64,000 nt of DNA. Origin: an uncultured Tolumonas sp. (GTDB lineage Bacteria > Pseudomonadota > Gammaproteobacteria > Enterobacterales > Aeromonadaceae). This document shows positions 7,991 through 15,503 of this stretch, piece after piece. The stretch's first letter is position 1, and every line of letters begins with the position of its first letter. The stretch spans positions 1,337,501 to 1,401,500 of the forward strand of contig NZ_OY829944.1 in assembly GCF_963556105.2 (NCBI RefSeq), in the 5' to 3' direction. Both the position numbers and the translations under genes were made by a program. The notes beneath the pieces were generated by a model, which searched no databases, was not told where the DNA came from, and saw nothing but the letters and a program-made list of their open reading frames with translations.

Positions 7991-8075
7991 TTTATGATTC
8001 ATTTGTATCAGTATAAGATGCATGGGTAATGCATCTTTAGCTTAATATAACTAATTATAAAACAAGGATTTGTTT

Positions 8076-10124
8076 ATGCTGTCTTGGTTATCAATATTTT
8101 CTACCCGCCGCTTTATTCTCCACTCATCAACATTAATATTACTCGCCATTGTGCTTACAACGGGTTACCGCTTATTTGCACTGGAACAATTAGAGCGTGT
8201 TGTTGCTGAAGAGATGAAACTGCATGATGACGCGATTACATTGCAAAATCTGCGTTATCACACAACCCAAATTCAACAATATCTTACCGATGCGTCGTTA
8301 ACAGGAGATGCTGATGCAATCAGTGAAGCGAAACAGCATCAGGCGTCAACACTGCCATTGTTAGATGAGCTTTCTAAGCTAGATCTCGGTGCTTTAACTG
8401 AATTGCTGAAGCAACAAGTTTCGGTTGGGCAACAAATGGTCTCCGCTTATAACCAGGGCGATAAACGCGAGGGAGATCGACTTATGAAGGCATCTGGAAT
8501 TGGGTTTGATGCAATTTCTGATGAGATCAATACCAAAGTAGAACGCGCGTTATCATTACAAACTGACCGCATGGAGGCATCACAAGCGATTGCTGAGGCG
8601 GGTCAGTTGCATATTAGACGTGTCGAATGGGTGAGTAGTTTTTTTCTGATCTTGTTGGCGTTGGGCACGTTGAACCTGATCCGTTTAAAAGTGAATCGTC
8701 CATTAGCGCGTCTTATTTCACAATTACAGGATCTGACGGCCGGAGACAAAAATCTGAGCTTCCGTTTGCCGGTGGTCGGTCGGGATGAGTTCGCGAGTGT
8801 TGCCCGTCGATTTAACCAATTCCTGACAGATCTCGATCATATTCTTTGTACCGTACAGCAAGTCTCTAGCCGTTCTGGTCAGCAAATGAGTATGTTGATG
8901 TCTCGTTCACAAGCGACATTGCAGGATATGGCTCAGGTTCAAGGCAATACAGATGCATTGGCCACAGCAGCTCAAGAGATGTCATCAACAATCCAAGAGA
9001 TTGCCAATAATACCGAGCAAGCAAAACATGAAACTGCCACGGCCCAACAACAAGCCGATGATGGTCAGGATCAAGTTGGGGAGGCTGTCACGCTGATCCA
9101 GAATGTAGCATCTGAAATAGAACAGGCAGTGACCAGCATAAACCAGTTGGATCAACAGAGTGCGCAAATAGGCGACATACTGAATGTTATTCGTACCATC
9201 TCGGAACAAACAAATTTGCTTGCGCTGAATGCAGCAATTGAAGCCGCGCGTGCAGGTGAAGCGGGCCGGGGATTTGCCGTAGTAGCGGATGAGGTTCGTC
9301 ATTTGGCTAACCGCACGCAACAAGCAACAGTAGAGATCCAGCAACGTATTCAGCAACTACAGCAACAAACTACCAATGCTGTCAGTATTATGAATCATAC
9401 AGCCCAGATCAGTGATAAAGCGGTTGAACAAGCTGTTGCTGCAGGGCAATCGTTAAACACGATAGTTCAAGCCGTAGGGCGTGTTGCTGATTTGAATCTG
9501 CAAATTGCGACCGCGGCAGAGCAGCAATCGTTAGTAGCACAAGAAACATCACGGAATGTGGTTAATGTTGCTGACATTGCTCGTACTGCATTTGATGATG
9601 CCGGTGCTAGTTTTCGTTTTGCGCGGGAAGTTAATTTCAGTTCCAAAGAAGTAAATATGCTCGCCAATCAGTTCATTGTGAGTGCCGATCATAATGGTGC
9701 TGAAGAGCATGATATTAATGAGATCGTGCGTTGGAGCGATGCTTTTAAGGTGGGGATCCGCCAAGTCGATGAGCAACATTATGCGTTATTCAGCGGTATG
9801 AATAGTTTATATCAGGCTATCCACGATGAAATTGCTGCAACGCAAGTGCAACAACGCCTAGATGCACTGGTACAGTTGGCGAAAAAACATTTGGCTGATG
9901 AAGAGGTGTTAATGCAACAGGCTGGGTATAAAGACATTCATGCGCATAAGCAGGTGCATAACCGATTGCTCGGTGAATTGGATCGTTTACTCAGTCGCTA
10001 TCATGCCAAAGAGGCTGATATTGAAATGGAAATTGTGTTTTTCCTCAAGCAATGGCTCGTGGAGCATATTTTCAGTGTGGATAAACGTTATGTACCAGAA
10101 TTACGAGCGGCCGGTGTTAATTAG
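8076..10124 (+). CDS. Methyl-accepting chemotaxis protein with C-terminal bacteriohemerythrin domain
   Basis: This is a membrane chemoreceptor of 682 residues. In order it has a TM segment (about 9-27), a helical periplasmic sensor, a second TM (about 190-205), HAMP, a cytoplasmic coiled-coil signalling domain with the conserved hairpin ([19 protein letters not shown], then [15 protein letters not shown]), and a C-terminal hemerythrin domain (about 555-675). The hemerythrin iron ligands are visible as H in [20 protein letters not shown] and the final H..D in VEHIFSVD. The di-iron site implies oxygen or redox sensing, as in DcrH-type receptors. An AAGGA site precedes the ATG at 8076; a TTG two codons earlier is possible. 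Confidence 0.95.
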
Positions 10125-10193
10125 GCTGGTCTAGATCGTTATTGCAGCAATCAATTTTCGGCAGAGATATTTTGCAATTGAATGATTGAATAG

Positions 10194-10220
10194 CCAGATA
10201 GCATATGTTATCTGGTTTTA
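10194..10220 (+). terminator. Chemoreceptor gene terminator
   Basis: The stem CCAGATA / TATCTGG with an 8-nt loop is followed by TTTTATTTTATT. Confidence 0.75.
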
Positions 10221-10674
10221 TTTTATTAATTTATTTTGCAACAAAAAAACCAAGAGTTCAGTAATTTAAACAAGGTAAGAAAAGGCTTAAGCCTCTCATA
10301 ATCCAATAACGACTGGATTTTCCGTATTTAAGATCTGAATGCGTGCCATATTAATAATACCAATAAACATCATTAATAAGACCCTAGTTGTCGTAACCAT
10401 TTTTACGCAGGCTGTTATATCTTCCATTCTGAAACCTCACAGATAAAGTTCCATCTATAAGCGCCTATAACAGCGATATTTATCAAATGAGTCTAATTTC
10501 GAGGAAAGATTAACGTATAGCGGTGAGTTTAGAGTCTTTGTAGTTGTAGTATCATTTTGTGAATGAAGGTTGCACTAAATATCATCACTTTTCACATAAA
10601 ACTAAAAGATTGCCGGACTACGATTGTGGTAAATTACACCGTAATTGTGTGACCCGGTACACGTAGAGGATGTT
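10221..10674. other. Intergenic region with a possible 34-codon minus-strand ORF
   Basis: No recognised gene is present. On the minus strand, 10400-10296 reads as a 34-residue peptide (MVTTTRVLLMMFIGII...) with a hydrophobic first half. It is followed at once by the small palindrome AGGCTTAAGCCT and TTTTCTT, a weak terminator. No convincing ribosome site is seen, so this is only a small-protein candidate. The stretch before 10675 carries the promoter of the next gene, with an AT-rich TAAATT near 10632. Confidence 0.25.
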
Positions 10675-11148
10675 ATGAGCAATATTAACCATCAAATTCG
10701 TAGATGCGCCAAAATCAATTCAGCCGTATTTGATATCGTATATGAAGATATGTGCCTGAATGATGAGGTAAAAAGCATTCATGCGGTTGTTCTGGCATCT
10801 TGCGTTGACAGTAATGGTGAACTGAAACTGAGCCCATGGATCCCTGCTTCATTGGTGCCGCATGTTCACAAAGATGACAATCTATGGTTTGTTACTCTGT
10901 CTTTGACGCCGGCAGCGATGAAGTATTTTATTCATAGTGACAACGTGATCAATTTTGAGTGCAGAATTCAGAACGTAGTGACACGAATTTCATTTTGTAC
11001 CGATCAATTGATCGGCCTCAACGGTTTAAACGGTAAAGAGCTGGTTGACTCTCAACCTTTCCAATATCTTATCAACGAAGATAAGCCAATCGAACAACCT
11101 GAACCACAAGCTAAAAAAAGACCGACGCTTTCAGTTGTTAAAAATTGA
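10675..11148 (+). CDS. SspB-like protein, putative ClpXP adaptor (second copy?)
   Basis: This 157-residue protein is not a standard annotated family on sight, but resembles SspB, the ClpXP specificity-enhancing factor, in two ways. The middle (about residues 68-110; VTLSLTPAAMKYFIHSDNV, then NFECRI) aligns nearly without gaps to the SspB core (VLNIAPRAVGNLELANDEV, then RFNARF). After a flexible Pro/Gln-rich linker it ends KKRPTLSVVKN, close to the ClpX-binding tail of E. coli SspB (GGRPALRVVK). The predicted role is to bind a class of substrates and tether them to ClpX. Start: ATG at 10675 with GAGGA 6 bp upstream. It stands alone, not beside sspA, so the normal sspB is presumably elsewhere and this may be a diverged paralogue. 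The similarity was judged from memory. Confidence 0.55.
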   Translation: MSNINHQIRRCAKINSAVFDIVYEDMCLNDEVKSIHAVVLASCVDSNGELKLSPWIPASLVPHVHKDDNLWFVTLSLTPAAMKYFIHSDNVINFECRIQNVVTRISFCTDQLIGLNGLNGKELVDSQPFQYLINEDKPIEQPEPQAKKRPTLSVVKN

Positions 11149-11613: not shown

Positions 11614-12342
11614 ATGCGTGAAACTGATTTTTTAGATGATAATGAAATTAATCCTGAGTTAAGAGCCGAAGCTGCGAAAAAAAGTACCTGGATCAGTGTG
11701 TTTGTGAATTGTATTTTAACTATTGGCCAGGTTGTTACAGGGTTTCTCTCTGGCTCTCAAGGGTTAATTGCAGACGGGATCCATTCATTATCTGATTTGG
11801 TTGCTGATTTTGTGGTGTTAGTGGCTAACCATAAGAGCCAAAAAGCACCAGATGATGACCATCCATACGGTCACTATCGATATGAAAATGCTGCATCATT
11901 GGTATTAGGCGTGTTATTGCTTGTTGTTGGGATTGGAATGTTAATCTCAGCTGTGCACAAAATTCAGCAACCCGATTCTATTGCCGCAGTCCATTCCATC
12001 GCATTGTGGGTTGCATTAGTTGCACTTACATTTAAGGAATCATTATTTCGATACATGTTGGCAGTCGCTAAGAAAGTGAAATCCAGCATGTTAGTTGCTA
12101 ATGCCTGGCATGCCCGCTCTGATGCTGCTTCCTCTTTAGTCGTTGCAATTGGGATCATCGGTAATCTATGTGGTTATAAAATATTAGATCCAATAGCAGC
12201 ATTAGTTGTTGGCATCATGATTTGTAAAATGGGTGTGGAATTTACTTGGGAGTCATTGCACGATTTAATGGATCGGGCTGCTGACGGGGAAATAGAAAAA
12301 CAAATCAAAGAAACCATACTTGCTACTGCAGGGATACATGGA

Positions 12343-12349
12343 ATTCATG
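12343..12349. repeat. IS481 target-site duplication, left copy
   Basis: ATTCATG immediately precedes the TGT end of the insertion element. The identical 7 bp follow its other end at 13553-13559. The preceding A is also shared, so 8 bp is possible. Confidence 0.88.
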
Positions 12350-13552
12350 TGTACTAGTTCAGACAAGATCTGACAGTTACCGATTTTTAATGGGTGTCTG
12401 TCAGATTAAATCTGGTTCAAATTCTTTTCTTCCCAGACTTTTTTACCATCAATAAACGTTTCCATTGGTGTTCGGCCACAGCACATTTTTCCTTGATGGG
12501 TTCGCTGATTATTGTAATAGCTCAACCAGATGTCCAGATCTGACTGAAGACTATCTAAATCGCTGTACAGCTTTTTCCTGAATGTGACTTGGTAAAACTC
12601 CTGAAGGATTGTCTTATGGAATCGTTCGCAAATGCCGTTCGTCTGCGGGGACATTGCTTTTGTTTTTGTATGATCGATATCGTTAATGGCCAGATATAAC
12701 TGGTAATCGTGCTGCTCAACTTTCCCGCAATATTCCGTGCCTCGGTCGGTCAATATTCGCAGCATCGGAATATTCTGAGCTGCAAAAAACGGTAATACGC
12801 GATCATTCAGCAAGTCGGCGGCTGTAATGGGCGTTTTTGTTGTATACAGTTTGCAATAAGCAACTTTGGAATAGGTATCGACGAACGTTTGTTGATAAAT
12901 TCTTCCGACACCTTTTAGATTGCCAACATAAAACGTGTCCTGTGAGCCCAGATAACCTGGATGCATCGTTTCAATTTCGCCACAGACTTCATCATCCTGC
13001 TGCTTGCGTTCCAGCGCTGCAATTTGAGCGTCAGACAGCAATATACCGTCTTGAGCCACCTTGTGTTCCAGCGCCTTAAGTCGTTTTTTAAAGTTCTCTA
13101 AATCATGACGTAGCCAGACTGAACGCACACCACTTCCCGAGATGAAGATGCCCTGTTTACGAAGTTCATTACTGGTTCGCTGTTGTCCATGTGCCGGATA
13201 CTCAATGGCATAATTGATGACAGCTTGTTCTGTCGTATCGTCAGTGCGATTTTTTAAGTTGGGAGCGCGTCGAGATTTATCAAGCAAAGCATCGATACCA
13301 CCTTCTTCGACCAGTTCTTTATAGCGATAGAAGGTGTCTCTGGATACGCCCATGACTTTACAGGCACGGGAAACGTTATTCAGCTCTTCTGCCAAATTGA
13401 GAAGACCTGCTTTGTGTTTAATAACGGGATTGTTACTATGGATCATGAGAGTTACCTCTAGGTTGTTTTGATTAAGGATTCGACACCCATATCAAAACCG
13501 GTAACTCTCTTCTTTTCAAACAGAAGTGTCAGATCAAGTCGCGACTAATACA
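12350..13552 (-). mobile_element. IS481-family insertion sequence, 1203 bp
   Basis: The element runs from TGTACTAGTTC... to ...GACTAATACA. The ends form imperfect terminal inverted repeats of about 27 bp (TGTACTAG / TGTATTAG outer parts, GATCTGACA inner parts) and start with TGT, as usual in the IS481 group. It encodes one transposase on the minus strand and is flanked by 7-bp direct repeats. A strong hairpin near its left end (ATCTGACAG / CTGTCAGAT) could terminate transcription. The structure appears complete, so it may be active. Confidence 0.9.
12406..13446 (-). CDS. IS481-family transposase
   Basis: This is a DDE transposase of 346 residues. Its N-terminal helix-turn-helix region (VSRACKVMGVSRDTFYRYKELV) is followed by a second HTH/linker and an rve integrase core (about 150-330). 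The catalytic triad fits D in FVDTYSKVAY, D in ILTDRGTEYCG and E in NGICERFHKT. The C-terminal YYNNQRTHQG motif is typical of the IS481/IS3 superfamily. The start has GAGGTAACTCTC directly upstream. The frame is intact. Confidence 0.95.
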   Translation of the reverse strand: MIHSNNPVIKHKAGLLNLAEELNNVSRACKVMGVSRDTFYRYKELVEEGGIDALLDKSRRAPNLKNRTDDTTEQAVINYAIEYPAHGQQRTSNELRKQGIFISGSGVRSVWLRHDLENFKKRLKALEHKVAQDGILLSDAQIAALERKQQDDEVCGEIETMHPGYLGSQDTFYVGNLKGVGRIYQQTFVDTYSKVAYCKLYTTKTPITAADLLNDRVLPFFAAQNIPMLRILTDRGTEYCGKVEQHDYQLYLAINDIDHTKTKAMSPQTNGICERFHKTILQEFYQVTFRKKLYSDLDSLQSDLDIWLSYYNNQRTHQGKMCCGRTPMETFIDGKKVWEEKNLNQI

Positions 13553-13559
13553 ATTCATG
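13553..13559. repeat. IS481 target-site duplication, right copy
   Basis: ATTCATG, identical to 12343-12349. The interrupted metal transporter gene resumes in frame immediately after it. Confidence 0.88.
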
Positions 13560-13829
13560 ATTTTAAAACGCGGATGATGGGCGATCTTGTGATGGTGGAT
13601 GTTCACCTCGAAGTCGATGGTAATTTATCTGTTCGGGAAGGGCATGATATCGCGTCTAATGCGCGTCAGCAGGTAATGAGTAAACACGAAGTGTTATATG
13701 TCATGACGCATGTCGACCCAGTTTGATTGCATGCGAATAAGTTTGCCGCTATTAACGTATCTTTTGTTACGTATAGCGGCAGATTTTTTTGCGAGGTAAT
13801 TAATTGAAAGTATTATTTTGTCTCTTCTA

Positions 13830-14365: not shown

Positions 14366-15503
14366 AATAACTGTTTCGAAATGTAGATCGCTTGGCGGGA
14401 GTAACTCGGTTTTGTTTATGCGATCGTATCGTCGCCAAACTAAACAACCGCCCCAAAACCGAGTCAGGTCTATGTTACCAGTTTTACCTCGAGTCGAGCG
14501 CAGACGCATCGAAAAAATCATTTATAAAACCAACGATAAAGAGCATGCCCGTCGTCTGACGGCCATTCTCATGCTGCACCAAGGGCATACTATTTTATCT
14601 GTTCATCGACTCACGGCTGCTGCTCGTTCATCCATTCAACGTTGGCTAAGTTGGCATCAGGAATGCGGTATTTCCGGACTTGAAAGTAAACAGCGTGGAC
14701 GATTTCGTTCTTTGCCATACCACCAAATCAGCCTCATCCTTGAGATGCTTATTCAATTTTCACCCGAAGATTTTGACTATCAGCGCTCTCGTTGGAGTTC
14801 AGAACTTTTTGCTTCCTTTATCCATCGTATTTGCCCTGAACATAATATCGCTGCTTCAACGCTCAGCCGTTGGTTGCTCTGGTTTGGAATTGTCTGGCGC
14901 AGAGCAGCACCGACACTTCATATCCGAGACCCGCATCGAGATGAAAAAATAGCATTGATAAACAATGTATTACAAAAAATTCCGTCGACGAACCTGTATT
15001 TTATGTTGATGAAGCTGACATCGATCTTAAATCCGAAGATTGGTGCTGACTGGATGCGATGTCATAACCAAAAACGGATCCCAACGCTAGGCAAAAATGA
15101 AAAACATAATGTTGCCGTGGCACTCAATAGTCAGACAGGAAAAGTGGTTTATACCACTGGAACCAGTAAAAACTCTGTGCTATTCATTCAGCTACTGGAA
15201 ACGCTAAAACGGCACTATCGTCGGGTAAGGATTGGACAATTATGTGATCCACAAAAGCCAAAAGACGCAGTTATGGCTGACAAACAACCCGAAATTTAAA
15301 TTGTTATTTCAGCCTGTTTATTCACCTTGGGTGAACCGCATTGAACTACTATGGCATTCAATGCATGAGATGGTCACAAGAAACCACCGATGTCAGGCTA
15401 TGTGGGAGTTACTGAGAAAAGTGAAATACTTTCTGGATCATGTCAGCCCATTTGCGATAGAAGGACAGAATAAACAGGTGGAGCACAATTAGGATCAGTT
15501 ATT
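14366..15503 (+). mobile_element. Degenerate IS630-family element (tentative limits)
   Basis: Short inverted ends AATAACTG (14366-14373) and CAGTTATT (15496-15503) flank the broken transposase gene. With neighbouring bases they match at 10 of 11 positions (CTAAATAACTG / CTTAATAACTG). A TA dinucleotide, the usual IS630 target, precedes the left end, but the right flank is AA. The boundaries are therefore provisional. Confidence 0.55.
14412..15492 (+). pseudogene. Frameshifted IS630-family transposase
   Basis: The N-terminal HTH half is intact (RRIEKIIYKTNDKEHARRLTAILMLHQG...). The DDE half is broken. Around 14990-15035 the family motif YVDEADIDLNP is present only in another frame, so the main frame reads LYFMLMKLTSILNP and loses the first catalytic Asp. 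A second frameshift near 15230 moves the DNYVIHKSQKTQLWL segment and the C-terminal YSPWVNRIELLWH (with the last acidic residue) into a separate frame ending at 15492. At least three indels are implied, so it cannot transpose by itself. Confidence 0.88.

Follow-up and report, generated by a model that had tools for sequence, protein, structure and literature searches.

An SspB-like protein with a ClpX-docking-like tail in Tolumonas: a possible second ClpXP adaptor

The window, i.e. the whole stretch of 64,000 nucleotides of Tolumonas DNA analysed here, features an intact open reading frame of 157 codons plus stop whose product ends in KKRPTLSVVKN (Table 1), in agreement with its preliminary description as a stand-alone gene for an SspB-like protein with a ClpX-docking-like tail. 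An alternative TTG start at position 10645 gives a longer frame, and the ATG at 10675 is preceded by a GAGG/purine-rich stretch that is partly conserved in an alignment of the upstream regions of 8 genomes. The extra N-terminal sequence relative to SspB that had been noted is also present: the protein is 23–27 residues longer than ordinary SspB ahead of the block aligned between them, depending on the start of the latter; this sequence may, as suggested, lie where SspB binds ssrA peptides. SspB dimerises through its N-terminal helix; for residues 1–72 of the window protein, homology to SspB is only putative.

Table 1. Features of the SspB-like gene and its product (positions in the window).
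Feature	Position	Strand	Evidence
SspB-like gene, 157 aa, stop included	10675..11148	+	ORF, orthologues, dN/dS
Ribosome-binding-like stretch TAGAGGATGTT before ATG, partly conserved	10664..10674	+	Upstream alignment, 8 genomes
N-terminal part, residues 1–72, exceeds SspB length	10675..10890	+	Offset of aligned block
SspB-like core block, residues 73–116	10891..11022	+	hhalign; same register in 7 orthologues
Hypervariable linker, residues 132–146	11068..11112	+	39% mean pairwise identity, 7 orthologues
ClpX-docking-like tail KKRPTLSVVKN, residues 147–157	11113..11145	+	88% identity (residues 147–156); strict motif

Upstream of the gene lie a chemotaxis receptor gene (8070–10124) encoding HAMP, MCP signalling and C-terminal hemerythrin domains, and a 66-base stretch (10137–10202) that recurs at two other places of this genome in copies about 85% alike, and in genome G010 in one copy 82% alike. 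Downstream, a cation-efflux gene (11614–12357) appears to be split by an insertion carrying an rve-type transposase gene; its probable end, recognised by eye, is the ORF at 13526–13726. The product of the insertion gene (12406–13446) has an integrase (rve) core, and a further ORF (14412–15299), with helix-turn-helix matches only and these below cut-offs, looks transposase-like by eye. The SspB-like gene itself, described as sitting in an accessory patch beside IS elements, is found throughout the genus and is not confined to this patch.

Of 11 Tolumonas genomes, 9 have an orthologue of the SspB-like gene, as against none of 64 other Aeromonadaceae genomes; the two Tolumonas genomes lacking it are drafts (one 95% complete in 730 contigs, the other 63% complete). 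Across the order (345 genomes, E<=0.05) and the class (369 genomes, E<=0.1) no further orthologue was recognised. Seven copies are intact, and those of G009 and G006 are frame-broken yet still encode the tail; the breaks (L006 and L010/L011, respectively) may represent sequencing errors or decay. The gene is under purifying selection, with dN/dS of 0.04–0.12 in the 9 of 21 pairs for which dS was computable, dS being near or above 1 in several of these and saturated in the other 12. An origin from phages or plasmids was considered and rejected, since two peptide patterns retrieved no relatives from viral contigs, the window protein had no relatives in phages at E<=10, and plasmids yielded only two insignificant partial matches (E 1; 31% identical across 35% of the protein length). 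An attC-like element, as expected for an integron cassette, was not seen by eye.

The position of the gene on the chromosome varies across species, which was unexpected. Its flanking genes differ among the window genome, G003, G005, G002, G007, G006 and G008, and agreement was found only between G009 and G010; BLAST served to compare each locus with the window, except for G008, where ORFs were read by eye, and the loci were set against each other by eye, with one flank only available for G006 and short flanks for G008. These differing places are seen across window positions 10675–11148 and loci L069–L073, L099, L100 and L103–L105. The window genome and G003 have some 400 upstream bases in common. 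The sequences flanking the G002 and G007 copies are also present at other places in the window genome, where they enclose different genes and the SspB-like gene is missing; in G001, different genes come after the gene that lies upstream in the window. A non-systematic look through the loci compared brought up no mobile element linked to the SspB-like gene. In five genomes, the identity to the window copy changes roughly in step with that of ordinary SspB (SspB-like/ordinary: G010, 97/99%; G003, 96/97%; G005, 82/79%; G002, 79/86%; G007, 78/84%), a pattern that fits vertical descent with relocation and leaves recent horizontal gain unsupported.

E. coli SspB in PDB entry 8ET3 ends in GRPALRVVK, so the comparison of the tail KKRPTLSVVKN with it, originally drawn with RPALRVVK, is right. 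The description depended on orthologues retaining this tail, and they do: it is encoded at all nine loci, in the seven intact and the two frame-broken copies alike. RPxL[ST][VI]VK is encoded in eight of them, the ninth, G006, having one extra residue inside the tail; N or ND follows the final K in 8 of 9 loci, and nothing follows it in G008. A strict motif for the ClpX-binding end was found at the terminus of 37 ORFs out of 671 distinct ones, and each of the 37 is an SspB or a member of the window SspB-like family. The 671 come from six-frame translation, with a minimum of 100 codons, of the window and of the loci fetched, and many are surely not genes. Since SspB loci were among those fetched, SspB is over-represented, and what the count tells is that matches are confined to SspB and the SspB-like family. 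Among the seven copies, mean pairwise identity is 82% for residues 1–34, 79% for 35–71, 85% for 72–116 and 87% for 117–131, drops to 39% in the linker (132–146) and returns to 88% in the tail (147–156). SspB is built in this way too, with a linker that drifts and, on either side of it, a core and an end peptide that are conserved. The family has an RPxLxVVK-type C-terminal peptide after a variable linker, and is predicted to bind ClpX.

Ordinary SspB is encoded elsewhere. As proposed, the SspB-like gene is not next to sspA: no sspA was found in the flanking ORF lists inspected, and a separate sspA-sspB pair, for which a search had been recommended, is located on contig C2 of the window genome. 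There, directly behind an ORF read as sspA, lies the single gene of this genome above the PF04386 cut-off (E 5e-42), which is intact and whose product ends in GRPTLRVIK. PF04386 gave a match above cut-off in 58 of 61 genomes searched, with exactly one gene in each of the 58. The window genome also has a 426-codon frame with a ClpX-type zinc-binding domain (E 3.9e-21) and a tmRNA with the tag ANDETYALAA.

The preliminary description further proposed an alignment of the core with the SspB fold over about 40 residues with one small gap. Comparison by hhalign of the SspB-like family core with 35 SspB cores did yield a match of this extent, albeit a weak one and with no gap (44 ungapped columns, E 1.9e-4, probability 47.5%); 1 of 400 column shuffles was as good. 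The hhalign E-values are those of single comparisons; an earlier comparison with 24 SspBs had given E 0.0024 and a probability of 12%, and a global alignment of the core to SspB gave E 0.0091 and 2%. The matched block, about residues 73–116, corresponds to the SspB stretch IVLNIAP..NARF..AVLAI, and against a profile of 27 SspB cores all seven orthologues matched best on the same block and in the same register. The core score of the window protein (23.7) was reached by none of 330 unrelated ORFs (a background of 337 minus 7 ordinary SspBs; best 22.7) and by none of 200 shuffles (best 23.6), and two of the seven orthologues scored below the best unrelated ORF (20.8 and 20.5). For the most divergent orthologue the core match had an E-value of 1.3e-5.

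Searches with family models were less favourable. PF04386, the Pfam model for SspB, with which a search had been advised as a check, matched neither the window protein nor any of the seven orthologues, which speaks against simple membership in that family, and a sequence search of PDB gave no match for the window protein. Its only NCBIfam match at E<=10 was the SspB model NF008769 (E 0.092, residues 60–116), at 12.7 bits versus a cut-off of 135. At full length, five of seven orthologues matched the same model (best E 0.001); with the tail removed, an SspB match was left in only one of seven (E 0.11). A full-length profile of the family, searched against the 369 class genomes, gave four best foreign matches (E 3e-5 to 9e-3) that read as sspB beside sspA; with the tail removed, three of these vanished and the fourth fell among noise at E 0.087. 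Neither set of matches was accepted as proof of core homology, the NCBIfam matches being mostly lost and the class-search profile falling to noise once the tail is absent.

In ungapped register, 4 of 15 positions invariant in 9 SspBs are kept (L75, A81, F94 and R97) and 11 are changed, and within the 44-column block 7 of 11 such positions are changed. When a gap was allowed (MAFFT), D68 paired with an aspartate of two phage SspBs. The arginine of the NARF motif of SspB contacts the ssrA peptide. AlphaFold models from five genus rows, and from the same rows plus two phage SspB rows, were poor (pLDDT 42.6 and 47.8), and even a good model from the second alignment would have been partly circular since it contained SspB rows. 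Among the top 50 Foldseek matches listed for both models, mostly antibody and other Ig-like chains, SspB did not occur, and since the models were poor these matches were taken as meaningless. In both models residues 70–113 follow the order strand, short helix, strand, strand, helix, which may correspond to the order in SspB. The SspB-like core is probably homologous to SspB.

On balance we favour the view that this protein serves ClpXP as a second, divergent tethering adaptor of SspB type, kept in Tolumonas beside ordinary SspB. Its folded core, up to about residue 131, would bind some protein or peptide, and its tail would dock on the zinc-binding domain of ClpX, as reported for the tail of SspB (PMC12373786, PMC7804408, PMC8138137); bound cargo would thereby be held near the ClpX pore and be degraded by ClpP. 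Docking, cargo delivery and, as first suggested, a substrate range differing from that of SspB are inferred. With 7 of the 11 SspB-invariant residues of the block changed, the plain ssrA tag is not the likely cargo, and the changed block together with the longer N-terminal part makes another cargo the more probable one. It is tempting to go further, though this is somewhat less likely than not, and to picture two SspB-type adaptors serving one ClpX, with the ordinary one handling ssrA-tagged proteins and the diverged one a separate cargo; the two would compete for docking sites, and the adaptor would have been duplicated and re-targeted.

Other explanations differ in what they make of the core. 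It may be unrelated to SspB, the protein being an independent small one that gained a ClpX-docking motif and serves either as a separate type of adaptor or as a substrate of ClpXP. Convergence can produce short linear motifs, the sequence signal is mostly tail-dependent, both in the class search and in the NCBIfam comparison with and without the tail, and Pfam SspB recognises none of the seven orthologues; we nevertheless regard an unrelated core as unlikely, given its same-register match in 7/7 orthologues, equalled by 1 of 400 shuffles, and an order of core, variable linker and tail that is the same as in SspB. If the core is homologous, the protein could still be a redundant second SspB delivering ssrA-tagged proteins like the ordinary one, perhaps under other conditions. 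That the SspB-invariant residues A81, F94 and R97 are kept, and that a tmRNA tag is available in the genome, would suit such redundancy; the 11 of 15 examined invariant positions that are changed, the longer N-terminal part and the intact ordinary sspB argue against it and make it improbable.

The divergent second adaptor also has to be weighed against a protein that delivers nothing and merely occupies the ClpX zinc-binding domain, blocking or tuning SspB and other adaptors in the manner of an anti-adaptor. SspB tail peptide alone is reported to inhibit RssB-driven turnover by ClpXP (PMC7226468), so a tail-bearing protein could compete; the core of the window protein is, however, about as conserved as its tail (79–87% versus 88%), which suggests that it binds something, and a pure competitor is thus quite improbable. 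Lastly, the link with ClpX is drawn from sequence and the HMMER core homology is not significant, so the tail likeness might be due to chance and the protein unconnected with ClpX. We give this next to no credence, as conservation of the tail across the genus contrasts with a drifting linker and the strict motif is found in no ORF among the 671 outside SspB and the SspB-like family.

SspB is a textbook adaptor, present once per genome in the 58 genomes with a match. If the preferred explanation is true, one genus would have a second, diverged protein with such a tail, illustrating how a protease gains a new substrate channel by a change in the adaptor core only, and degradation tools could draw on it as a naturally occurring module that docks on ClpX and offers a new binding pocket. 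In the open-licence literature, no paper pairing Tolumonas with SspB was found, nor, among the titles and abstract openings listed, any second or paralogous bacterial SspB, both being weak evidence of absence.

Among known systems, RssB resembles SspB in being an adaptor that competes for the same docking domain of ClpX. It differs, as described in PMC7226468, in being of the response-regulator type with a phosphatase-like C-terminal domain, and in that its putative C-terminal motif is not recognised by the zinc-binding domain, another site having been proposed.

Large phages such as Pseudomonas phage pf16 and Erwinia phage RAY likewise have SspB relatives outside an sspAB pair, which have been reported previously (pf16, PMC5587285; RAY, PMC10299810). 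Clear SspB proteins with a ClpX tail are encoded on two viral contigs of 158 and 165 kb (L077:4001–4387 and L078:3995–4399), the protein of the first sharing 99% identity with its pf16 counterpart. Matches at E<=1 number 38 records in the phage collection, the 30 listed being mostly from Erwinia and Pseudomonas phages, with at least one bacterial record. The two phage-type proteins clearly match PHROG 8945, SspB-like (2e-48 and 5.5e-19), whereas for the window protein neither a PHROG family nor a phage record matches at E<=10.

SspB itself (PF04386; NF008769 and sister models), a dimeric protein (PMC8138137) described in the literature as a tethering adaptor, which binds ssrA-tag or RseA peptides and accelerates their degradation by ClpXP, shares with the window protein its size, the order of core, variable linker and RPxLxVVK tail, and the weak core match over 44 residues. 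The SspB-like protein differs in a gene that does not stand beside sspA, a score far below the family cut-off, a longer N-terminus without the RPYLLRAFYxWLLDN-type start of SspB, 11 of 15 examined invariant positions changed in its family, and the N or ND that follows the final K at nearly all of its loci.
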